From an uncultured Pseudoflavonifractor sp. (GTDB lineage Bacteria > Bacillota > Clostridia > Oscillospirales > Oscillospiraceae), in assembly GCA_947577065.1 (NCBI GenBank), contig CANPTT010000003.1:32917-96916 (forward strand): a stretch of DNA of 64,000 nt. The letters run 5' to 3'. How positions within the stretch are numbered: position 1 is the stretch's first letter; the number at the start of each line of letters is the position of its first letter. A program made the position numbers and the translations under genes. A model generated the notes under the pieces. It did no database searches. It was not told the origin of the DNA and worked only from the letters and a program-made list of their open reading frames with translations. Shown here one piece after another: positions 25,445 through 43,536 of the stretch.

Positions 25445-26980
25445 ATGAAAAAGTTGACTTCACTACTCTGCGCCCTGGCTCTGCTGGCCGGAGTGACAGC
25501 ACCTGCAAAAGCCATTCAGCCTGAGAGAGTCCCCATCCGGATCCATGATGAGGCCGCCGCGCAGTATGGGCCGGAGACCACAGCCGAGGTGGTCAATGTG
25601 CTGTTTAACGGGAAGCCCATGGAGCTGGATGTACCTGCCGTCAGCCAGAGTCTGGACGGCGTCGACGGACGCACCATGGTGCCGGTCCGTCCTGTGGCCG
25701 AGGCTCTGGGAGCTACGGTAGATTGGGATGGAGAGGGACGCCAGGTGAAGATCGCCGCCGGGGCGGACAGGGTGGTGCTTACCTTGGGACAGCCTACGGC
25801 GGAGGTAAATGGGGAGACGGTGGACCTGCCGGGCCGGGTCCCCGCCGTGGTAGCCAGATATGGAGACGCAGAGCGGACGCTGGTGCCGCTCCGGTTTGTC
25901 TCGGAGCAGCTCCACGCTCAGGTGGACTGGGATAACGAGGCTTACGCGGCCCTGGTCACCGCCGTCATCGAGCCGCCCGATCCCGATGCGCCCCCCAGGG
26001 GACGGCTGACCCGGCTGGCGGCTGACGATAACGCCCAGACCATTACCCTCTACCTGAGCTCTGAGCCCCAGTACCGGGTGACAGATCTGGGGGATCGGGT
26101 GGCCATTGACCTGCTGGGGGTGGTCATCGGGAGCGGCGAGGATGGCTCTCTGCGGCCGGAAAACCCGGTGGTGAGCCGGGTCCGCTATGCCCAGCATGGG
26201 ACCGACATTGATCCCAGGGAGAACTATGTGACACGGGTCGTACTGGATCTGGCGCGGGGTTGTACCTATGAGGACAATGTGACCGTAATAGGAGACCCCA
26301 ATCTGCAAGCGGTGGTCATCTCGGTGACTCCGCCGGATACAGGGGCTGCGCTGCCAACTCTGCCTGAGGATTGGGACCCCAATGCCTTTACCGTGGTGCT
26401 GGACGCGGGCCATGGAGGCAGTGCCGATGGGGCGGCCTATGAGGGGGTGAAGGAGAAGAATATCACGCTCCCTGTTACCCTTCGGGCGGCGGAGCTGCTG
26501 CGGGAGAAGGGATATAATGTGATCCTCACCCGAAATGAGGACGTGTACATGGACCTTTATGACCGCTGCGATGTTGCCAACAATGTGGGGGCGGATATTT
26601 TTGTCTCCATTCACGCCAACGCCAGCCCCACCAATCTTGAATTTCAGGGGACCTTTACCTATTCCTATCCAAACAGCGCACGGGGCGAGGCACTGGCGGG
26701 CCACATCCAGGCGGCGGTGGTGGCCCGGACAGGCTCTGTGGACCGGGGCCTGCTCACCAACGATTATGTGGTGCTGCGGGAGACCGCAATGCCCGCCGCT
26801 TTGCTGGAGATGGGTTTCATGTCCTGCCATGAGGAGCTGGAGCTGTTGGTGAGGCCGGAATACCAGGAGAAGGTGTCCCAAGGGGTGGCGAATGGAGTGG
26901 AGAGCTACCTATCCACCCTGCCCAGAAAAGAAAAAACCGCCGGTGGGGGAGGGGGGTTCCTCCTGCCGTCGGGGGCGTAA
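25445..26980 (+). CDS. N-acetylmuramoyl-L-alanine amidase (Amidase_3) with stalk and AMIN domains
   Basis: VVLDAGHGGSADGAAYEGVKEKNITLPVTLRAAELLREKGYNVILTRNEDVYMDLYDRCDVANN; N-term stalk domain, AMIN-like middle. Confidence 0.93.
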   Translation: MKKLTSLLCALALLAGVTAPAKAIQPERVPIRIHDEAAAQYGPETTAEVVNVLFNGKPMELDVPAVSQSLDGVDGRTMVPVRPVAEALGATVDWDGEGRQVKIAAGADRVVLTLGQPTAEVNGETVDLPGRVPAVVARYGDAERTLVPLRFVSEQLHAQVDWDNEAYAALVTAVIEPPDPDAPPRGRLTRLAADDNAQTITLYLSSEPQYRVTDLGDRVAIDLLGVVIGSGEDGSLRPENPVVSRVRYAQHGTDIDPRENYVTRVVLDLARGCTYEDNVTVIGDPNLQAVVISVTPPDTGAALPTLPEDWDPNAFTVVLDAGHGGSADGAAYEGVKEKNITLPVTLRAAELLREKGYNVILTRNEDVYMDLYDRCDVANNVGADIFVSIHANASPTNLEFQGTFTYSYPNSARGEALAGHIQAAVVARTGSVDRGLLTNDYVVLRETAMPAALLEMGFMSCHEELELLVRPEYQEKVSQGVANGVESYLSTLPRKEKTAGGGGGFLLPSGA

Positions 26981-27034: not shown

Positions 27035-27883
27035 CTACCGCCGCTGTCCCTGCAAGAGCATGGCCCCGGCGAAAAAGAGGGCCAGGTATAGGGTGATAGA
27101 GGCCCCGGCGGAGGCGCCGATGTAGTAGGAGGTCATGAGCCCGATCACTCCACAGACCACCGCCCCCACAACAGAAAAAATGTGATATTGCCGGGTGTTC
27201 CGGGCCACGCCCCTGGCTGCGGCGGCGGGGAGCACCAGCAGGGAGTTGATGACCAGCAGTCCCACCCAGGACATGGACAGGGTGACCACCACGGCGATGG
27301 CGGCGTTGAGGACCGCCTCCTGCCAGAAGACCTGAACGCCCCGGCTGCGGGCCAGAGCGGGGTGGAGGGCGGAAAGGAGCAGTGTGTTGTAGGCGCAGCT
27401 CCACAGCACCAGAATGACCGCCAGGACTCCCGCCAGAAGGGCGATCTTGTTCGGATGCACACTAAGGATGTCGCCGATGAGGAGAGCGTTGAATTTGGTG
27501 AAGGAGCCCCCATCTAAAGTGGCCATAAAGATCCCCAGAGCCACCGCGGTGGAGGAGAATACCCCGATGACCGTGTCGCTGGCCAGAGCCGAGCGGCGGC
27601 GGACATAGGTGAAGAGAAGAGAGAACAGGAGGGAGAAGGACACAGCGGCCCACATGGGCTCCTGAAGTCCGCACAGGACCCCAATAGCCACCCCGGTGAA
27701 GGCGGAGTGGCCCAGGGCGTCGGAGAAGAAGCTCATCCGGCTTTGGACCACCATGGTGGAGAGCAGGCCGAAGAGAGGAGAGATGACTAAAATGGCCAGC
27801 AGGGCATTCTTCATAAAGAGCATTTGCCCCGGCTGGGCCCACTCAAAGGGCAGCAGGTCCACCAGCGCGTACCACAGGGACAT
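27035..27883 (-). CDS. znuB: Zinc/manganese ABC transporter permease
   Basis: Multi-TM; LGHSAFTGVAIGVL, SWVGLLVINSLLVLPAAAARGVARN typical ABC-3. Confidence 0.92.
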   Translation of the reverse strand: MSLWYALVDLLPFEWAQPGQMLFMKNALLAILVISPLFGLLSTMVVQSRMSFFSDALGHSAFTGVAIGVLCGLQEPMWAAVSFSLLFSLLFTYVRRRSALASDTVIGVFSSTAVALGIFMATLDGGSFTKFNALLIGDILSVHPNKIALLAGVLAVILVLWSCAYNTLLLSALHPALARSRGVQVFWQEAVLNAAIAVVVTLSMSWVGLLVINSLLVLPAAAARGVARNTRQYHIFSVVGAVVCGVIGLMTSYYIGASAGASITLYLALFFAGAMLLQGQRR

Positions 27884-28654
27884 TTACTCTACCCCCTTTC
27901 CCATACGCAGGTGAAATACGTCCTGGAATTCCTGACTGCCCAATACCTGGCTGGGGGAGCCCAACTTTAGAACGGTATTCCGGAGCAGGATCACCTTGTC
28001 GGCGTACTGCTCCAGGGTGGCGAAGTCATGAGTGGACAGGAGGATGCTGAGGTCATAGGTCCTCCGCAGCTCATCCAGCATGTCGAGAAGCTGTTTCTCT
28101 CCCTCCACGTCTACCCCGGACAGGGGCTCGTCCAAAATGAGGATGTGGGGGAGGGGTTCCAGGGCCAGAGCCATGAGCACCCGCTGAAGCTCCCCCCCTG
28201 AGAGGGAGCCGATGCGCTTATCCAAAAGACCCTCGGCGTGGGTGCGGGCAAGACAGCCCCTGACCTGCTCCCGCAGCCTCCGGGGGAGGGGGAGAAACAC
28301 GGGCCAGTCGCCGATGGCGGCAGCAAAGAAGTCCAGCACGCTTACCGGGTCGCCCTGGTCAAAGGCGGGGGATTGCGGGACATAGCCGATGACGGGCCGC
28401 CGCTTCTCTCCGTCGGAGCGGTGGAAGGAGATGGAGCCGGAGTGGGGAAGCTGGCCCAGAACGGTCTTAAAGAGGGTGGACTTTCCCGCTCCGTTGGGGC
28501 CGATGAGGGCTGCGATCTCTCCGCAGTGGAGATGGAAGGATATGTCATGGAGCAGTTCGTCGGAGCCCATGGTGACGCCTACGTCCTTCAGCTCCAGGCA
28601 GCAAAGTCCCTCGCAGCCGTGGCCGGTACAGTTATTGTGAATGTGAATACTCAT
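27884..28654 (-). CDS. znuC: Zinc/manganese ABC transporter ATP-binding protein
   Basis: GPNGAGKSTLFKTVLG; LSGGELQRVLMALAL; ILDEPLSGVD. Confidence 0.92.
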   Translation of the reverse strand: MSIHIHNNCTGHGCEGLCCLELKDVGVTMGSDELLHDISFHLHCGEIAALIGPNGAGKSTLFKTVLGQLPHSGSISFHRSDGEKRRPVIGYVPQSPAFDQGDPVSVLDFFAAAIGDWPVFLPLPRRLREQVRGCLARTHAEGLLDKRIGSLSGGELQRVLMALALEPLPHILILDEPLSGVDVEGEKQLLDMLDELRRTYDLSILLSTHDFATLEQYADKVILLRNTVLKLGSPSQVLGSQEFQDVFHLRMGKGVE

Positions 28655-29526
28655 TGAAGAGCCTCCTGAACAGCGGCGCGGTTGGCGGTCATGGCGTCAA
28701 AGTAAGGCCGGATGCCCGTGCCGTCACCGGACATGAGCATATCCAACTCATAGATCTTGCAGCCTGTCTCCCGGGCGATGACCTCCGCGGTGGAGCGGGA
28801 GCCGTTTTTTTCCACGAAGATGGCTGGAATGTCATATTCCTTGATAAGGGCCACGATCTCCTTGATCTCCTGGGCGGAGACGGTGGAGCCCTCCTCTTCC
28901 TCGATGGCCTTGAGAAGGGTCAGACCATGGGCCTGGGCAAAGTATTGGAACCCGTCGTGAAAGGTGATGAGGTAGGGACAGGACAGCTCTCCCGGGAGTC
29001 CGGTGGGGGCAGGGAGCTGGTATTCCGCGGAAGGGCCTGCCGGCGTGACAAATTCCGTGAGGGCTTGGCGGAGGTTATTTCCTGCCTGAAGAAAGCACCC
29101 GGGGTCCATCCAGTAGTGGGGGTCATACTCCTCCTCGTGGTCGTGACCGTCATGGTCTGCGTGTTCCGGGGCGGGCAGCAGGTCGATCCCCTCGGAACAA
29201 TCAATGACCGCTGCGGCGGAGGCGGCCAGGGCGTCGGCCATGAAATCTTCCAGCCCCGTCCCGCTGGTGATGATGATATCGGCCCTCTCAATGGCCTTCA
29301 TGTCCTTTACCGTCAGGGAGTAATCGTGGAGACAGGAGGTTTGAGAGTTCACCAACAGCTCCACTTGTACCTCTGATTCCTCCATCCCCTGGATGAGATC
29401 GGTGGTGAGCAGGTACACCGGATAGGTGGTGCAGAGGATGTGGAGCGCTTCCTCCCGCACCGGGGCCTGGGTACAGCCAGAGAGCAGAAGGGCTGCCAGC
29501 AGCGGGGGAATAAGCCGTTTTTTCAT
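28651..29526 (-). CDS. znuA: Zinc/manganese ABC transporter substrate-binding lipoprotein
   Basis: Lipobox LSGC; His/Asp-rich EHADHDGHDHEEEYDPHYWMDP; FVEKNGSRSTAEVIARETG. Confidence 0.92.
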   Translation of the reverse strand: MKKRLIPPLLAALLLSGCTQAPVREEALHILCTTYPVYLLTTDLIQGMEESEVQVELLVNSQTSCLHDYSLTVKDMKAIERADIIITSGTGLEDFMADALAASAAAVIDCSEGIDLLPAPEHADHDGHDHEEEYDPHYWMDPGCFLQAGNNLRQALTEFVTPAGPSAEYQLPAPTGLPGELSCPYLITFHDGFQYFAQAHGLTLLKAIEEEEGSTVSAQEIKEIVALIKEYDIPAIFVEKNGSRSTAEVIARETGCKIYELDMLMSGDGTGIRPYFDAMTANRAAVQEALQ

Positions 29527-29558
29527 GGGACCACCTCCTTCCATTGGATCGGGAAATC

Positions 29559-29587
29559 ATTATACTCTCTTTTACCCGGTTTGTAAA
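29559..29587 (-). promoter_or_regulatory. Promoter of znuACB
   Basis: Minus strand TTTACA-N17-TATAAT. Confidence 0.7.
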
Positions 29588-29588
29588 A

Positions 29589-29629
29589 CAAAAGCGGCGT
29601 TACCCGTGAGGTAACGCCGCTTTTTCTTT
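29589..29629 (-). terminator. Rho-independent terminator of the pyrophosphatase-like gene
   Basis: AAAGCGGCGTTACC-CGTGA-GGTAACGCCGCTTT flanked by T/A tracts. Confidence 0.8.
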
Positions 29630-29630
29630 T

Positions 29631-31781
29631 TTATCCCAGCAGAGCGGGGAGGTTGAAGGTGACGATGAGGACCGAGGAGAGCAGGGCCGCCGTGACCGCC
29701 AGCATTGCCAGCGCGGGTAGGGCAGGGCCCGCCGCCTGGTACAGAGAGGCAAACGCCCGCTCCGCCGTCAGAGCAAAGCGGTGGCAATCAGAGCCGCGGC
29801 CACCTCTGCGTCCGCTCTCCACATATCGCCGGGCACCGCCCAGAACACCGCCGGTGAGGGTGAAGAAGAGAGAGAGGGTCACGCTGAACACCGAAAGGCA
29901 TCCCAAAAAGCCCAACAATCCCCGAAGTCCCAACAGGAGCCCGGCTGCTATGGGAGCCGTCAGGGCAAGCAGAGCAGGGGGGAGAAAGCCCAGCAAGGAC
30001 CGGGTGGCACAACGGGAGACGCAGGCGGCATAGTCCGGAGCCTGCCCCCCTTCCATCAGTCCGTCGTTATCCTGAAACTGTCGGCGGGCCTGCAGAAGAA
30101 CGGAACGGGCTCCGCCCCGGACCGCCAGCATAAGGAGCCCCAGAATGAGAAATACCACCATAACGCCCAGCAGGATCCCCAGAAGCAGGAGGGGGTCCTG
30201 TTGGGAGAGGGACCAGTCGGCCTGGGTCTCGGAGAAGATCCGGGCAAGACACAGAAGCAGGGTCAGGGTACCGAATGCGGAGGACAGGGTAAGGAGGCAT
30301 TGGCCGCCGTTGGCAGCGGAGGCACCGATGGCGGCCAGATTATCCGCCCGGCGGCGGGAGACCTCGTCGGCGTCGGTAAGAGAGGCGGCGTGGGCGGCGC
30401 AATCCCCGATGGGCCCACAGAGGGCGGAGGCCAGGGATATGCCGGTGACCGAAAGCGCACTCACCCCGGCCAGGGCGATACCGTAGGCGCCCTTGAGAAG
30501 GTCGTTCATGCCTCCGGCGGTATAGAAAGCGGCGGCCAGGGCGGCTGTGGCAAAAAGGACGGGGATGGCGGCGGAGCAAAGACCGATCCCCGATCCGCCG
30601 GTGACGGCTGCTGCGGCGCCGGCCTCGGCGGTCTCCGCCAAGGAACGGGCCGGTTTATAGGTGTCGGAGGTAAAATATTCCCCTGCCAAAGCGATAAAGG
30701 AGCCTCCGATCGATCCGGCAAAGACAGGCAGACACAGCGCCCAGCTTCCGGTCAGAAAATAAGTGATAGGCAGGCAGGCCGTGGCGGTGAGGACTGCGGG
30801 GACCAAAGAGGCGAACCGCAGACACCAGGGAAGGGAATAGCGGTCCCCGCGCTCCTGAGGACGGATGGTGAGGAAGCCGATCAGACAGGCGACGGCGCCT
30901 GCCGCCGCCACCGCCAGGGGAAGAAGCATGGCGTTCCAGGCCATGTCATCGGCGGAGAAAGCGGTCATACCCAAAAAGAGGGCGGCAAAGAGGAGATTTT
31001 CGTAGGAGGCGTACCCCCCCGCGGCGGTCCCCGCCGCGGGGCCGACCCCGTGGCCGATCCGGTCGGCGATAGCGGCGGGATTCTGGGGGTCGTCGGGGGG
31101 CAGGCCCATCTCCCGGTCCACTGCCTCGGCCGCGATTCCGGCGGAGCGGGCAAAAAGAGCCCCCATACGGAAGAGAAGGGAGACCAGGGCGCAGCCCAGG
31201 CCAAAGAAAAGCAGTGTTCGGGCAATGGCGTCAGGATCGTAGCGCATGGAATACTTGAGAAAGAAAAACCAACCGGTCAGGTGGACAAGACCCAGCCCCA
31301 TGGAGAAAAAGCTGACCACGGCCCCGGCGCTGAAGGCGACGTCCACGCCCCGATCCAGCCGCTCTCCGGCGGCCTGGGCGGCCCGGGGACCTGCGGCGGC
31401 GGTGACAAAGGCTCCGGCCATGCCTACCAGAAGGGCGCAAAGGCCGCCGGAGAGGAGCGCCAGAGGGGTAAGGCGGCCCAAACGCCGAAGGTAGACCAGC
31501 GCCGCCTGTAGTCCAAAGACCAGCGCCAGCCCCCCGCAAGAGAGGATAAGTTGCCATTTTAAGTAGGCGTTGGTCCCCTTGCGAAGAGCTGCCGTCAAGC
31601 CCTGGGCGGGCTCGCCGCCCTCGGAAAGGGGGATAAGGCGCCCCAGTTGGATAAAGGCGAACAAAAGGGAGAGGCCCCCGCCTATAAAACCGATCCAAAA
31701 GAGATTTTCGATCTGCAACTGCTCCAGCTCCTTTGCCGCCCCAAGGGGGACGGCGGGAATATGTATGACCAATTTTACCAA
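29631..31781 (-). CDS. Divergent membrane pyrophosphatase (H+-PPase) homologue, predicted catalytically inactive
   Basis: ~16 TM; retained blocks PPDDPQNPAAIADRIGHGVG, AGEYFTSDTYKPARSLAETAEAGAA, GAYGIALAGVSALSVTGISLASALCGPIGD, TGGVLGGARRYVESG collinear with M-PPases. Confidence 0.8.
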   Translation of the reverse strand: MVKLVIHIPAVPLGAAKELEQLQIENLFWIGFIGGGLSLLFAFIQLGRLIPLSEGGEPAQGLTAALRKGTNAYLKWQLILSCGGLALVFGLQAALVYLRRLGRLTPLALLSGGLCALLVGMAGAFVTAAAGPRAAQAAGERLDRGVDVAFSAGAVVSFFSMGLGLVHLTGWFFFLKYSMRYDPDAIARTLLFFGLGCALVSLLFRMGALFARSAGIAAEAVDREMGLPPDDPQNPAAIADRIGHGVGPAAGTAAGGYASYENLLFAALFLGMTAFSADDMAWNAMLLPLAVAAAGAVACLIGFLTIRPQERGDRYSLPWCLRFASLVPAVLTATACLPITYFLTGSWALCLPVFAGSIGGSFIALAGEYFTSDTYKPARSLAETAEAGAAAAVTGGSGIGLCSAAIPVLFATAALAAAFYTAGGMNDLLKGAYGIALAGVSALSVTGISLASALCGPIGDCAAHAASLTDADEVSRRRADNLAAIGASAANGGQCLLTLSSAFGTLTLLLCLARIFSETQADWSLSQQDPLLLLGILLGVMVVFLILGLLMLAVRGGARSVLLQARRQFQDNDGLMEGGQAPDYAACVSRCATRSLLGFLPPALLALTAPIAAGLLLGLRGLLGFLGCLSVFSVTLSLFFTLTGGVLGGARRYVESGRRGGRGSDCHRFALTAERAFASLYQAAGPALPALAMLAVTAALLSSVLIVTFNLPALLG

Positions 31782-31920
31782 TATCCAACCGTTTTTTCAA
31801 GCATTAGTTTCCACAAACCCCGGACTTCTCCATATTTCCTCTTTCCCCTTTCTCCAAAATACGCTATAATGAGAACGAAAGTCAGCCGGAGTCAAAATTT
31901 GAACAGAGGGGTGAGCTTTT

Positions 31921-32697
31921 ATGCAGGAGCATGAGCTTCAATTTCACATCAAGTGCAGGAAGGGGGACGTGGGCCGGTATTGCATCCTGCCCGGAGATCC
32001 GGGCAGGGTGGAGAAGATCGCCGCCTATCTGGACGAACCCCGCAAGGTCCAGCAGAACCGGGAGTATGTTGTCTATACAGGCTTCCTTTTGGGGGAGAAG
32101 GTCAGCGTCTGTTCCACGGGCATCGGCGGTCCCTCCGCCTCCATCGCGATGGAGGAGCTTGCCGCCATCGGGGCGGATACCTTTGTCCGGGTGGGGACCT
32201 GCGGGGGCATTGCCCTGAAGGTCCAATCGGACGACGTGGTCATCGCTACCGGGGCCGTCCGTCATGAGGGGACCAGCCGGGAGTATGCCCCCATCGAGTT
32301 CCCCGCCGTCAGCGACTACCAGGTCCAGCAGGCTCTGGTGCGGGCGGCCCAGAACCTGGGCAAGAGCTGGCATGCCGGGGTGGTCCAGTGCAAGGACTCC
32401 TTCTACGGCCAGCACTCTCCCGCTCGGATGCCGGTGGCTCAGGAGCTGCTCTACAAGTGGGAGGCATGGAAGCGGCTTGGGGTGCTGGCCTCTGAAATGG
32501 AGTCGGCCGCCCTCTTCTGTTGCGCCGCCGCCCTGGGGGTCCGGGCAGGTTCCTGCTTCCATGTTATCTGGAACCAGGAGCGGGAGGCTGCGGGGTTGGA
32601 CCAGAAGGAGAGCCATGACCTCCAGGCTGCCATCCAGGTGGGAGTAGAGGCGGTAAAGGTGCTCATTGAGGAGGACAGAAGAATACATAAGGACTGA
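31921..32697 (+). CDS. udp: Uridine phosphorylase (nucleoside phosphorylase family)
   Basis: [71 protein letters not shown]. Confidence 0.92.
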
Positions 32698-33183: not shown

Positions 33184-35181
33184 ATGAAAAAGAGGATCAC
33201 TGCCCTTGCCCTGGCCATTTTTATGGTTATGGGAACAGTCGCTCTGGCGGCTGGCACGGAGAAGAGCATCACGGTTGCTCCCATGACGATAAGCGTCAAC
33301 GGATTGGAGGTCACCCCCACCAAGTCTGACGGGACCGCCGCCGAGGTCTTTTCCTATGAGGGCGCCACCTACGCTCCCCTGCGTTATCTCAGCGAGCTGC
33401 TGGGGATCGAGGTGGAGTGGGACAAGAACGATCCCAATGCCGCCAAGCTGGTGGGGGTGCCCGGCATGCCCTCCGCCTCCAAGGCTGCGCTCAGCTTTAA
33501 GGCCGGTACCTACACCGCTGAGGCTCAGGGCAACAACGGCCCTGTGAAGGTGGAGCTGACCGTCTCCGCCGACGCCATCACCGCGGTAAAGGTGCTGGAG
33601 CAGGCTGAGACCCCTTCTATTGCCGGCCCCGCTCTGGAGCGGATTCCCGCGGCTATCGTGGAGAACCAGTCCCTGAAGATCGACACAGTTACCGGCGCCA
33701 CCAACACCAGTAAGGCTGTTCTGGCCGCCGTTGAGGAGGCCGTCAAGCAGGCCGGCGGCGACGTGGAGGCGCTGAAGAACGCCGCTGTGAGCGCCGGCCG
33801 CCCCGTGGGCGATCAGGCCCTCACCGCTGACGTGGTGGTCATCGGCGCCGGCGGCGCCGGACTGGCCGCTGCGCTGGAGGCCAAGGACCAGGGAGCCGGA
33901 GAGGTGATCCTGCTGGAGAAGATGGCTGCCATCGGCGGTACTACCTTCACCTCCCAGGGCCTGATCGGCGGCTATGACAGCAAGCTGCAGAAGTCCAAGG
34001 GTGTGGAGCTCACCTTTGACCAGATGTACGACAACCTGATGAGTAACGCCTCCTATCACCTGGACCAGAACCTGACCACCATCACCCTGAAGAAGAGCGG
34101 TGAAACGGTGGACTGGCTGGCTGACCGGGTGAAGCTGGATATCAACGATGTGAAGGTGGGTTATGGTCCCCTCCAGATGATGCACACCGTCAACGGCGGC
34201 GGCGCGGCTATGGCCGGCCCCTTTGACGCCGCGCTGAAGGAGGCGGGCGTAAAGCTTATGCTGGAGACCAAGGCCACTGAACTCATCACCGACAACAGCG
34301 GCGCGGTGGTCGGTGTGCGGGCCGAGAGCAAGGGCTCCAAGGTAGAGATCGCCGCCAAGAGCGTGGTCATCGCCACCGGCGGCTACGCCTACAATCCCGA
34401 GCTCACCGCCCGGTTTACTCCTGAGCTGGCCGGAACCTGGGGCGTGGGTTTCCCCGGCTCCACGGGCGACGGTATCATTATGGCCAGCAATGTGGGCGCT
34501 GCCACTACCCACACCGATGATATGATGTGCGTCCTCAAGGACTACACTATTATGTCTGAGCATAACGGCACGTCCAACTCCGCCAACAACAACGGCTTTA
34601 TGAACCTGCCCAACATGATCATGGTGGGCGCCCAGGGCAAGCGCTTTGTCAACGAGAAGGACCAGGGCTATATGACCCAGAAGCTCAACGCCCCCATCTT
34701 TGACCAAATGCACAAGGATAAGCTGGGCTATGTCTGGGCCATCTCTGACCAGGCCGCTGTGGACGCCACCAACGGCAAGACTAAGCGGAACGGAGGCCTG
34801 AGCTATGTGACGGGCAACACCATTGAGGAGTTTGCCGCCAATCTGGGGGTGGACGCCGGGAACCTGAAGGCTACCATTGAGAACTTCAACGCCTACGTTG
34901 ACGCGGGCTATGACCAGGAGTTCCGCCGCAATGAGAAGGAGATGGCAAAGCTCACCGCTCCCTACGTGGCCATTCCTCTGGTACCCTGCGAGATCATCAC
35001 CTACGGCGGTGTGGCCCGCAACGACAAGGCTGAGGTCATCCGGGCCGACGGCAGTTCCATCCCCGGCCTCTTCGTGGCCGGCGAGGCCAGCGCCAACAGC
35101 GCCTACATGGGCTTTACCCTGACCAACTGCTTTGCCTGGGGCCGGATCGCCGGCTCCAGTGCTGCGGCCTACGCGAAATAA
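33184..35181 (+). CDS. Secreted stalk + FMN_bind + FAD-dependent reductase (flavocytochrome c-like)
   Basis: Signal peptide; stalk AEVFSYEGATYAPLRYLSELLGIEVEWD; FMN-binding VTGATNTSKAV; VVIGAGGAGLAAALEAKDQGAGEVILLEK. Confidence 0.88.
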   Translation: MKKRITALALAIFMVMGTVALAAGTEKSITVAPMTISVNGLEVTPTKSDGTAAEVFSYEGATYAPLRYLSELLGIEVEWDKNDPNAAKLVGVPGMPSASKAALSFKAGTYTAEAQGNNGPVKVELTVSADAITAVKVLEQAETPSIAGPALERIPAAIVENQSLKIDTVTGATNTSKAVLAAVEEAVKQAGGDVEALKNAAVSAGRPVGDQALTADVVVIGAGGAGLAAALEAKDQGAGEVILLEKMAAIGGTTFTSQGLIGGYDSKLQKSKGVELTFDQMYDNLMSNASYHLDQNLTTITLKKSGETVDWLADRVKLDINDVKVGYGPLQMMHTVNGGGAAMAGPFDAALKEAGVKLMLETKATELITDNSGAVVGVRAESKGSKVEIAAKSVVIATGGYAYNPELTARFTPELAGTWGVGFPGSTGDGIIMASNVGAATTHTDDMMCVLKDYTIMSEHNGTSNSANNNGFMNLPNMIMVGAQGKRFVNEKDQGYMTQKLNAPIFDQMHKDKLGYVWAISDQAAVDATNGKTKRNGGLSYVTGNTIEEFAANLGVDAGNLKATIENFNAYVDAGYDQEFRRNEKEMAKLTAPYVAIPLVPCEIITYGGVARNDKAEVIRADGSSIPGLFVAGEASANSAYMGFTLTNCFAWGRIAGSSAAAYAK

Positions 35182-39504: not shown

Positions 39505-40113
39505 ATGACTTTCTGGGATAGGATCGCCGGAGTCTATGACCTGGCGGAGAGGACCAACCGAAGGGCCAACGCCGAGACGGTCCGGCAGGTGAGGGAGCTG
39601 GTCCCCCAGTGGTCCTCGGTGCTGGACTGCGCCGCGGGAACGGGGGAATTCTCTCTGGCCGCGGCAGAGCGGGCGGGGGCAGTGATGTGTACCGACCTGT
39701 CCCGGCCCATGCTGGACCGGGCGGCGCGGAAGGCAGAAAAGCGGGGATTTTCCAACATCTCCTTCACCATGCGGGACCTGACCTGTCTGCCTGAGAGGGA
39801 CGGAATGTACGACGTGGTCATCGCCGCCAATGTTCTCCACCTGCTGCCCCATCCCGAGGCGGCCTTGGGGGAGCTGTGGCGGGTCACCGCCCCCGGCGGC
39901 AGGCTCATCCTGCCCACCTACCTACAGGGGGAGGCCACCGCCCTTGCCAGGCTGCTCATCGAACTCTATCAAAAAATGGGTTTTCGGTATCAGAAAAGAT
40001 TTACCCTGACCACCTACCGAAGGTTCCTGCGGAACCAGGGCCTGCCCGCCCGGGTGACCCGAGTCCCCGGCCGGGTCCCGGTGGGACTGGCAGTGTGTGA
40101 GAAGCCTTTGTGA
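39505..40113 (+). CDS. Class I SAM-dependent methyltransferase
   Basis: WSSVLDCAAGTGEFSLAAAERAGAVMCTDLSRPMLDRAARKAEKRG motif I. Confidence 0.88.
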   Translation: MTFWDRIAGVYDLAERTNRRANAETVRQVRELVPQWSSVLDCAAGTGEFSLAAAERAGAVMCTDLSRPMLDRAARKAEKRGFSNISFTMRDLTCLPERDGMYDVVIAANVLHLLPHPEAALGELWRVTAPGGRLILPTYLQGEATALARLLIELYQKMGFRYQKRFTLTTYRRFLRNQGLPARVTRVPGRVPVGLAVCEKPL

Positions 40114-40169
40114 ATGTACCACATGCCGGGCGGGCTGCGCCCGCCCACTTTCCCAAGGAGGAATGCTCC

Positions 40170-42020
40170 GTGACAAAAAAGCAAGAAAAGACCCTCGGCC
40201 GCATCGGCGCCGCTGGCGGACTGCTGGTACTGGCGGTGGTGGCGGCACCCCGCCTGCCCGTCCCGGCCATCCTGCTGTTCCTTGTCCCCTACTTCACCAT
40301 TGGCTGGGACATTCTCTGGAAGGCCCTGCGGAACATCAAAAACGGTCAGGTCTTTGATGAGAATTTCCTTATGGCCATCGCCACGGTGGGGGCTCTGGCC
40401 ATCGGAGAATATCCCGAAGCGGTGTTTGTGATGCTCTTTTACCAGGTGGGAGAGCTGTTCCAGGCGGTGGCGGTGGGGAGATCCCGGAAGTCCATCACCG
40501 CCCTGATGGATATCCGGCCTGACTACGCCAATGTGGAGCGGGAGGGGAAGGTGGAGACGGTGGATCCCGACGAGGTGGCGATGGGTGAGACGCTTCTCAT
40601 CCGCCCCGGCGAGCGGGTGCCTATTGACGCTGTGGTGCTGGAGGGGGTCTCCACTCTGAATACCGCCGCCCTCACCGGGGAGTCTCTGCCCCGGGACGTT
40701 GCACCGGGAGACGAGGTGATCTCGGGCTGCGTCAATCTGTCGGGCCTTCTTCGGGTAAGGACCACCAAGGAATTTGGAGATTCCACCGTGGCAAAGATCC
40801 TGGACTTGGTGGAGAACTCCTCTGCCAAGAAGGCGAAAACCGAGCAGTTTATCACCCGCTTTGCCAAGTGGTATACCCCGGCGGTGGTCATCGGAGCGGT
40901 GGCCCTGGCTGTCCTGCCGCCCCTGCTATTGGACGGGGACTGGACCCGTTGGTTCCGGCAGGCCCTCATTTTCCTGGTCATCTCCTGTCCCTGCGCCCTG
41001 GTCATTTCGGTGCCCCTGACCTTTTTCGGCGGCATCGGCGGCTGCTCCAGGGCGGGGATCTTGGTGAAGGGTAGCAATTATCTGGAGGCCCTCGCCAGGA
41101 CTGAGACGGTGGTCTTTGATAAAACAGGGACCCTTACCGAGGGGGGCTTTCAGGTTACCGCCATCCATCCTCAGGAGTGTGAAGAGTCCAGACTGCTGGA
41201 GCTGGCGGCCCTGGCAGAGAGCCATTCCAGCCATCCTATTGCCCGGTCCCTCCGGGACGCCTATGCTGCGCAGCTGGATCAAAGCCGCGTGTCGGACGTG
41301 GAGGAGTTGGCGGGCAGAGGGGTGAAGGCTGACATTGACGGAATGACCGTCTATGTCGGAAACGACAAGCTGATGGAGGAGGTGGGGGTCCCCTGGCGTC
41401 CCTGCCACAGGGTGGGGACCACCGTCCACCTGGCGGGGAAGGGGGAGTATCTGGGCCACATCGTCATCGCCGACCAGATCAAGCCCGATGCCAAGGCCGC
41501 CGTTGCCGCCCTGAAAAGGGCCGGGGTCCGGCAGGCCGTGATGCTCACCGGGGACGCAAAGGAGGTGGGCCAGGCCGTGGGGGCGGAACTGGGGCTGGAT
41601 CAGGTCCATGCCCAGCTGCTTCCGGCGGACAAGGTGGACCGGGTGGAGGAGCTGCTGAAGGGAAAGTCTCCCAGGGGGACGCTGGTTTTTGTGGGGGACG
41701 GCATCAACGACGCCCCCGTCCTTTCCCGGGCCGATGTGGGGGTCGCCATGGGGGCCTTGGGCAGCGACGCCGCCATTGAGGCTGCCGATGTGGTGCTTAT
41801 GGACGACAAGCCCTCCAAGCTGGCCCAAGCCATCCGGATGGCCCGAAGGACTCTGCGGATTGCCAATCAGAATATCGTCTTTGCCCTGGGGGTGAAGGGG
41901 ATCTTTCTTCTGCTGGGCGTGTTGGGAAGGGCCAACATGTGGGAGGCCACCTTCGCGGATGTGGGGGTCAGTGTCATTGCCATTCTTAACGCCACACGGG
42001 CGCTGAAGGAGAACGGCTGA
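40170..42020 (+). CDS. Heavy-metal P1B-type ATPase (Zn/Cd/Pb type), without N-terminal HMA domain
   Basis: SCPCALVISVPLTFFGGIGGCSRAGILVKGSNYLEAL; VFDKTGTLTEGGF; VGDGINDAPVLSRADVGVAMG; GTG start after AAGGAGG. Confidence 0.93.
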   Translation: MTKKQEKTLGRIGAAGGLLVLAVVAAPRLPVPAILLFLVPYFTIGWDILWKALRNIKNGQVFDENFLMAIATVGALAIGEYPEAVFVMLFYQVGELFQAVAVGRSRKSITALMDIRPDYANVEREGKVETVDPDEVAMGETLLIRPGERVPIDAVVLEGVSTLNTAALTGESLPRDVAPGDEVISGCVNLSGLLRVRTTKEFGDSTVAKILDLVENSSAKKAKTEQFITRFAKWYTPAVVIGAVALAVLPPLLLDGDWTRWFRQALIFLVISCPCALVISVPLTFFGGIGGCSRAGILVKGSNYLEALARTETVVFDKTGTLTEGGFQVTAIHPQECEESRLLELAALAESHSSHPIARSLRDAYAAQLDQSRVSDVEELAGRGVKADIDGMTVYVGNDKLMEEVGVPWRPCHRVGTTVHLAGKGEYLGHIVIADQIKPDAKAAVAALKRAGVRQAVMLTGDAKEVGQAVGAELGLDQVHAQLLPADKVDRVEELLKGKSPRGTLVFVGDGINDAPVLSRADVGVAMGALGSDAAIEAADVVLMDDKPSKLAQAIRMARRTLRIANQNIVFALGVKGIFLLLGVLGRANMWEATFADVGVSVIAILNATRALKENG

Positions 42021-42098: not shown

Positions 42099-43394
42099 TC
42101 AGCTTTTGCCCAGCTCCACAGGCTTTTTGGGAGTATTCACCGTCCGGGCGGAGGTTTTGCCCTCGGGCTTGATCTCTCCGGCGGCCATCAGGGATCGCTT
42201 GGTAAGAGTGGGTCCCACCAGCTCATAGACCAGTACGGAGAAGAGGACCACGTTTCGCACCATGGCGCCGTCCGCCAAGTCTTGGGCGGTGAGAGCCATG
42301 CCCAGGGCGACCCCTGCCTGGGGGAGAAGGGTGATGCCGAGATGCCGCTTGATCTTGGCGTCGCACCCGGTGGCAGCACAGCTCAGGTAGGAACCGGTGA
42401 ACTTGCCCAGGGAGCGGAACAGGATGTAGACCACACCAACCAGCAGCACCAGAGGCTGGGACAGCACCCCCAGATCCAGCTCTGCGCCGGAGAGGACAAA
42501 AAAGAGAATGCTCAGGGGGGCGGTCCAATGGTCGATGCGCTCCATGATCTCCTGGGAGGTATGACAGATATTGCAGAATACGGTGCCGGCCATCATGCAG
42601 GTGAGAAGCAGACTGAAACCAATGTGGACGCCGCCCACCTCAAACTCCATCATGGAAAGGCCGACGGTCAACAGCACAAAGCCGATAGACAGGCTCCGGC
42701 GCTTGCTGCGGGAGTGAAAAAACTGCTCCATGCAGTGAAGGAGATATCCTGCCAGACCACCCAGGAGAAGGGAGAGGAGGATCTCGATAACAGGCTCTAC
42801 CAGTACGCTGATCACGCTGATCGCGCCGCTCTCCATGGCGGTGGCTACCCCAAAGGAGGCGGAAAAAAGGACCAGTCCCACCGCGTCGTCAATGGCCACT
42901 ACCATCAGCAGGAGATGGGTCAGAGGACCATCGGCCTTATATTGCCGGACCACCATCAGAGTGGCGGCGGGGGCGGTGGCGGCGGCAATGGCGCCCAGGG
43001 TGATGGCGGAGGGCAGACTGATGAGAGTGGGGTTCAGAAAATGAAGGCCGATGAGGGCCAGATCCACGATGACGGTGGTGGTTACGGCCTGGGCGATGCC
43101 CACTACGATAACCCGGGAACCCATGCTCCGCAGCTGCTCCAGCCGGAACTCATCCCCGATGGCAAAGGCGATAAAGCCTAGAGCTACCTGGGATATGATA
43201 TTGAACTGGGCCACTTGCTCCGGGTTGACAAAGCCCAGGCCGGAGACCCCTAAAGTCCCTAGACAGAAAGGACCCAGCAGAAGTCCGGTGATGAGGTAGG
43301 CGGTGACGGCGGGAAGCCCCAACTTCTTGGCGGGCCGGGACATGAGAAGCCCGCCCACCAGGGCGATAGACAGGCAGGTGAGGATCTGGGACAT
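42099..43394 (-). CDS. CPA2-family cation:proton antiporter
   Basis: LPAVTAYLITGLLLGPFCLGTLG; multi-TM; AIDDAVGLVLFSASFG. Confidence 0.88.
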   Translation of the reverse strand: MSQILTCLSIALVGGLLMSRPAKKLGLPAVTAYLITGLLLGPFCLGTLGVSGLGFVNPEQVAQFNIISQVALGFIAFAIGDEFRLEQLRSMGSRVIVVGIAQAVTTTVIVDLALIGLHFLNPTLISLPSAITLGAIAAATAPAATLMVVRQYKADGPLTHLLLMVVAIDDAVGLVLFSASFGVATAMESGAISVISVLVEPVIEILLSLLLGGLAGYLLHCMEQFFHSRSKRRSLSIGFVLLTVGLSMMEFEVGGVHIGFSLLLTCMMAGTVFCNICHTSQEIMERIDHWTAPLSILFFVLSGAELDLGVLSQPLVLLVGVVYILFRSLGKFTGSYLSCAATGCDAKIKRHLGITLLPQAGVALGMALTAQDLADGAMVRNVVLFSVLVYELVGPTLTKRSLMAAGEIKPEGKTSARTVNTPKKPVELGKS

Positions 43395-43496
43395 GAATGC
43401 TCGCTCCTTTGGGATCAAAATCATAGCAACGCATTGTAGAATAGCACTTTTAACCAAAAACTGCAAAGGGTTTCGGGGAAAAAGGTAAACAAAATA

Positions 43497-43513
43497 GGCC
43501 GGAGTCTCCGGCC
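43497..43513 (-). terminator. Short hairpin terminator
   Basis: GGCCGGAG-T-CTCCGGCC; minus strand followed by TATTTTGTTT. Confidence 0.6.
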
Positions 43514-43536
43514 CATTTCTTGTGATTTGTGATTAT

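Follow-up and report, generated by a model that had tools for sequence, protein, structure and literature searches.

A likely membrane pyrophosphatase pseudoenzyme in Pseudoflavonifractor: an hppA orthologue with its hydrolytic centre erased

The closest described relatives of the protein reported here are the K+-dependent Na+/H+-pumping membrane pyrophosphatases (M-PPases; hppA; PF03030), represented by TmPPase (4AV3, 5LZQ) and VrPPase (4A01), with which it shares full-length collinearity and a predicted 16-helix fold. The hydrolytic centre of these enzymes comprises 16 residues: the acidic residues D5.61, D5.65, E5.76, D5.77, D6.35, D6.39, D6.43, D11.57, D15.61, D16.31, D16.35 and D16.39; the lysines K5.58, K15.64 and K16.38; and one asparagine printed as N12.53 (PMC6882861), taken here to be N534 of VrPPase. 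D6.43 and D16.39 activate the nucleophilic water (PMC5150537). Two other groups serve for comparison: pseudoenzymes such as the pseudokinases and the pseudoprotease CspC, which the present protein resembles in that the fold is conserved under purifying selection while the catalytic motifs are gone; and the soluble PPases of family I (PF00719) and family II (DHHA2), which are cytosolic, unrelated to M-PPases and do not pump ions. Full-text searches, with most subscription journals outside their coverage, returned no relevant report of an M-PPase pseudoenzyme or of a Pseudoflavonifractor pyrophosphatase.

The window analysed here (64,000 nucleotides of contig CANPTT010000003.1) is part of a 2.0-Mb genome (G000) that is 84.6% complete. 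Among named organisms, its nearest relatives are an uncultured Pseudoflavonifractor (G014, CANRZY010000059), Pseudoflavonifractor sp. Marseille-P3106 (G009, LT827123) and the Oscillospiraceae MAGs G007 and G008. Below, orthologues with an intact centre are called canonical and those without it degenerate. The gene and its expression signals are as follows:

29631..31718, minus strand: hppA orthologue without catalytic residues (pseudo-M-PPase), TTG start at 31718, 695 aa
31728..31734, minus strand: Shine-Dalgarno sequence AAAGGAG, kept in canonical and most degenerate orthologues
31772..31800, minus strand: sigma-70-like promoter TTGAAA-N17-TAAAAT
29585..29620, minus strand: intrinsic terminator, 11-bp GC-rich stem and T-run, directly past the hppA stop codon

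The initial annotation had drawn a longer reading frame on the minus strand (29631-31781, 716 codons), which is open throughout. The true start is TTG 31718 rather than TTG 31781, because the Shine-Dalgarno sequence precedes 31718 and the relatives start there; TTG 31781 is dismissed because it lies upstream of the -10 box. The promoter occurs with identical spacing in the clade A relatives G014, G007 and G008 and in several canonical orthologues; transcription is predicted to begin near 31765. The gene does have its own terminator, as had been proposed, and most hppA orthologues are followed by an equivalent hairpin of unrelated sequence; since the stems differ between species, the terminator has been maintained through turnover. 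No Rfam elements were found within the window.

The claim that this is a full-length M-PPase homologue is borne out at several levels. The protein matches PF03030 with 378 bits (cut-off 29.7) in one continuous stretch covering profile positions 2-643 of 645, and phmmer aligns VrPPase (4a01/6afz) in register across residues 105-701. An AlphaFold2 model, computed from an alignment of eight sequences of which four are canonical M-PPases, has a pLDDT of 85.5 and a pTM of 0.87; it superposes on TmPPase and VrPPase with TM-scores mostly of 0.83-0.87 at 20-26% identity (0.86 for TmPPase 8b21, 0.86-0.87 for most VrPPase entries). Profile, model and orthology (see below) place the protein in the PF03030 superfamily by descent and by its 16-TMH fold. 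The NCBIfam equivalogs for sodium-translocating pyrophosphatase all score below their curated cut-offs, the best being NF001960 (367.9 bits versus 546).

Mapping the published residues through the VrPPase alignment reveals that 13 of the 16 hydrolytic-centre residues are missing; only D5.77, D6.35 and D11.57 remain (D269, D279 and D507 in VrPPase numbering). The replacements, in the same numbering, are K250R, D253G, D257E, K261R, E268P, D283H, D287P, D294G, N534A, K541Q, D691G, K694R, K695R, D723E, D727A, K730Y and D731Q, and every motif replacement named in the initial annotation proved real. All three catalytic lysines are absent, and the water-activating D6.43 and D16.39 have become P and Q. 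On our own core set of 17 residues the window protein keeps 2, whereas those canonical proteins in the comparison that are complete at these sites keep all 17. The ion gate is altered as well: R5.50/D6.50/E6.53/K16.50 reads RGAM against RDEK in the canonical orthologues, so that D6.50, E6.53 and K16.50 are replaced by G, A and M. The canonical members of the genus combine A12.46 with E6.53 and are of the K+-dependent E6.53 type. An alignment artefact as the cause of the missing residues is ruled out by HMM, phmmer and structural alignments in register, because the predicted structure superposes on TmPPase and VrPPase. In hydrolytic residues, water-activating aspartates and ion gate alike, the protein departs from a functional M-PPase (EC 7.1.3.1), and to judge from these residues it almost certainly neither hydrolyses PPi nor pumps ions.

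The neighbouring genes provide syntenic markers for the locus:

31921..32697, plus strand: nucleoside phosphorylase (PF01048), divergent neighbour, 83-95% identity across the genus
28651..29544, minus strand: znuA-like zinc-binding lipoprotein (PF01297)
27884..28654, minus strand: znuC-like ABC ATPase
27035..27883, minus strand: znuB-like ABC-3 permease (PF00950)
25445..26980, plus strand: N-acetylmuramoyl-L-alanine amidase (PF01520), outer marker

The order nucleoside phosphorylase / PPase / znuA-znuC-znuB / amidase, whole or partial, flanks canonical hppA in G009, G006, G002 and G015, and likewise flanks the degenerate copies in G000, G014, G007, G008, G011 and G012 (G012b). The window gene has kept the ancestral position of hppA and is its orthologue, not a paralogue; because sister species carry the intact enzyme at the same locus, the dead gene is hppA itself. 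A search for a canonical hppA elsewhere in the genome found none: the window ORF is the only PF03030 match in the 84.6%-complete assembly. A second, canonical M-PPase could be absent merely from this assembly, and for the clade G007 (94% complete) argues against a missed one. That the gene might be an additional copy next to a genuine hppA is ruled out by the own-genome search, the genus searches and synteny.

These searches also bear on the proposal that the protein is a non-catalytic partner of a canonical M-PPase, such as a regulatory subunit in a hetero-oligomer. M-PPases are homodimers with inter-subunit communication (PMC6882861), and G012 carries a degenerate and a canonical gene, as a partnership would have it. 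However, of the seven genomes that carry a degenerate copy, six (G000, G005, G007, G008, G011 and G014) yielded no second PF03030 gene, and we regard a partner role as extremely improbable.

Several other genes near the locus may be mentioned. Less than 12 kb from the dead pump are a P-type ATPase (E1-E2; 40101-42017) and a Na+/H+ exchanger-type antiporter (42105-43532), possible alternative routes of cation transport. Adjoining the locus is a secreted-looking FAD/FMN-binding (fumarate-reductase-like) flavoprotein (33184-35181) with an N-terminal copper-amine-oxidase-type domain fragment.

All 16 genomes of the genus contain a PF03030 match, and seven (G000, G005, G007, G008, G011, G012 and G014) have a degenerate copy, so that the same kind of ligand loss recurs in seven species. 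Complete canonical copies score 790-901 bits and fragmented ones lower; the degenerate copies score 401 (G011), 392 (G005), 378 (G000), 363 (G014), 334 (G007), 326 (G008) and about 110 bits (G012b). G012b keeps 1 of the 17 core residues and, given its extreme divergence, may be decaying. It sits at the ancestral locus (L115, G012:C319, 3.8-5.9 kb), and the second M-PPase of that genome, canonical but of another subtype, lies on a small contig (L114, G012:C342). G013 has two canonical subtypes.

The degenerate copies all group together on the PPase tree. In a six-marker species tree (rpoB, alaS, valS, ileS, leuS, metS), canonical G015 falls with degenerate G005 and G012 (support 100), and canonical G004 sits close to clade A (support 78). 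Constraining the degenerate lineages to be monophyletic on the six-marker tree lowers the log-likelihood by 394 units (AU p 0.004), and the neighbour genes with rpoB also reject such monophyly (AU p 0.006), while rpoB alone gives weak monophyly (support 66). A single origin without regain is rejected on both counts, and for this reason the grouping on the PPase tree is probably long-branch attraction. Clade A has fixed new residues at 40 sites; hardly any of these is common to both G011 and G005. Because monophyly is rejected and new residues are rarely common to the lineages, hppA has probably eroded in place on two or three separate occasions, in {G000, G014, G007, G008}, {G005, G012} and {G011}; alternatively, it was lost once and regained in G004 and G015. 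Unlike typical pseudoenzymes, the window protein derives from a primary ion pump, and it is the only copy found, eroded in place rather than a duplicate, in a process recurrent within one genus.

That the window gene is maintained rather than decaying, as the initial annotation had proposed, is strongly supported. By pairwise GY94 maximum likelihood, omega after the loss is 0.161 for G000-G014 (dS 1.6; 2dlnL versus omega = 1: 253) and 0.138 for G007-G008 (dS 1.43; 2dlnL 272), values that are approximate because dS is near saturation. Canonical pairs give 0.041 (G009-G010) and 0.011 (G006-G001), and the neighbour genes 0.03-0.13. At dS 1.4 neutrality predicts about 60 stop gains and none is observed; the seven frames, about 700 codons each, are all unbroken, and promoter, Shine-Dalgarno sequence and terminator are retained. 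These features rule out a pseudogene: what is found is a homologous fold without catalytic motifs, and neither a disrupted frame nor neutral evolution. They also weigh against the idea of a slow relic, a gene that does little or nothing and on which selection would work chiefly to prevent a misfolded, toxic membrane protein, up to its eventual deletion. Much faster evolution (branch lengths 0.2-2.7 versus 0.01-0.14 in canonical copies), the divergence of G012b and the presence of redundant soluble PPases speak for such a relic. A dispensable gene usually ends in frameshift or deletion, though, and the open frames, the low omega and the kept expression signals make this account rather improbable.

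Of particular interest is where the remaining constraint lies. We compared the inner ring (TM5, 6, 11, 12, 15 and 16, assigned on the model from the published topology and thus approximate) with the outer ring. In close canonical pairs dN is far lower in the inner than in the outer ring (0.007 versus 0.046 in G009-G010; 0.004 versus 0.037 in G006-G002), whereas in degenerate pairs the difference is gone (0.257 versus 0.261; 0.214 versus 0.164) and omega is 0.19 inside against 0.095 outside. Mean identities for inner and outer ring are 0.845 and 0.642 in canonical proteins and 0.592 and 0.611 in clade A. At 286 positions that are near-invariant in canonical proteins, clade A keeps 42 of 70 Gly/Pro residues but only 5 of 35 Asp/Lys/Asn (Fisher p 8e-6), and none of the 9 Lys. 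Unlike in M-PPases proper, whose canonical representatives in the genus are intact, constraint has moved off the catalytic ring; selection preserves the folded body (outer ring and Gly/Pro packing) and not the catalytic and ion-conducting inner ring. This speaks for a structural or binding role rather than for a channel or remnant pumping.

The passive, ungated ion or solute channel that had been suggested would reuse the pump's conduction pathway; the fold is retained and R5.50 and K16.50 are kept in some degenerate copies. The gate residues, however, have turned into RGAM, RDCK, HGWK or HGWR, the Trp at 6.53 in two copies would more likely plug the path, and the conduction ring is without its former extra constraint, which leaves a channel highly improbable. 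A ligand sensor or binding protein fares better. Here the Mg-PPi site would have become a metal-free pocket for a phosphate-like or nucleotide anion, through loss of Mg-coordinating Asp and gain of Arg/His, and would serve signalling or gating. The net charge over 34 pocket and gate sites shifts accordingly, from -10 in canonical proteins to -1, +1, +2 and +4 in clade A, +4 in G011 and G005 and +2 in G012b; R or H is fixed in clade A at former D/N/K sites (N280R, D283H, K261R, K694R and K695R); and loop 5-6 is relatively conserved (0.83). Nevertheless, constraint is weaker on the pocket ring than on the rest of the protein, pocket residues vary among degenerate lineages, unlike what one shared ligand would lead one to expect, and the K-to-R changes may reflect G+C bias. 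A sensor is thus possible but unlikely.

Removal of PPi would fall to the soluble PPases of the same genomes. A family I enzyme is encoded in G000 (C33:16960-17415), G014, G007, G011 and most canonical members, and a DHHA2/family II enzyme in G005, G012 and G013; in G008 (67% complete) no soluble PPase was found. Within the genus the two families look mutually exclusive. Because canonical genomes carry a soluble PPase too, the distribution suggests that it is older than the M-PPase loss and makes the loss tolerable. Its presence does not explain why the dead protein is retained. PPDK presence shows no correlation with M-PPase loss.

We consider it likely, on the comparative evidence, that the window gene encodes a pseudoenzyme of the M-PPase family: an in-place hppA orthologue whose hydrolytic centre is erased, whose fold is kept and whose role at the membrane would be non-catalytic. 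The gene would descend vertically from a K+-dependent (A12.46), E6.53-type Na+/H+-pumping M-PPase; erosion would have wiped out the hydrolytic centre and changed the ion gate, with the 16-helix fold held by purifying selection and PPi removal left to a soluble PPase encoded elsewhere. What remains is likely a non-catalytic structural or binding role, the pump having left behind, for example, a scaffold or a platform for interactions, and the site of constraint inclines us slightly towards a scaffold rather than a sensor. Of the earlier idea of a repurposed membrane protein, the full-length, catalytically erased and maintained part stands; the partner option is unsupported and the channel option disfavoured. 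More tentatively, with a little less than even confidence, we propose that two or three independent conversions at the native locus, all within one genus, turned a primary ion pump into a non-catalytic membrane protein whose new role is conserved. If so, M-PPases would carry a second, catalysis-independent function, which becomes the sole object of selection when a soluble PPase takes care of PPi. Since the change occurred in place and close relatives still have the intact enzyme, canonical and dead orthologues of sister species offer a natural experiment on what M-PPases do beyond hydrolysis and pumping. For several Pseudoflavonifractor-like gut bacteria it is a mistake to annotate a PF03030 match as 'sodium-translocating pyrophosphatase' or to deduce from it that energy is conserved by way of PPi.

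Outside the genus, no degenerate M-PPases were seen among the matches listed for 301 family and 396 order genomes; rare second copies may score below the range these listings cover. The weak matches in these scans are mostly contig-cut fragments, and 20 further low-scoring full-length copies at the order level are intact save for single changes and one shortened C-terminus; inspection of these weak matches rules out a widespread hidden subfamily among the matches listed. One otherwise intact M-PPase (L172, G610:C7:1489351-1491685), a 667-aa frame in a nearly complete genome, has D727, K730 and D731 changed or missing. Two contigs labelled Treponema and Dysgonamonadaceae MAG (L102 and L103) carry M-PPases with Oscillospiraceae-type N-terminal patterns, and may be mis-binned or reflect transfer.
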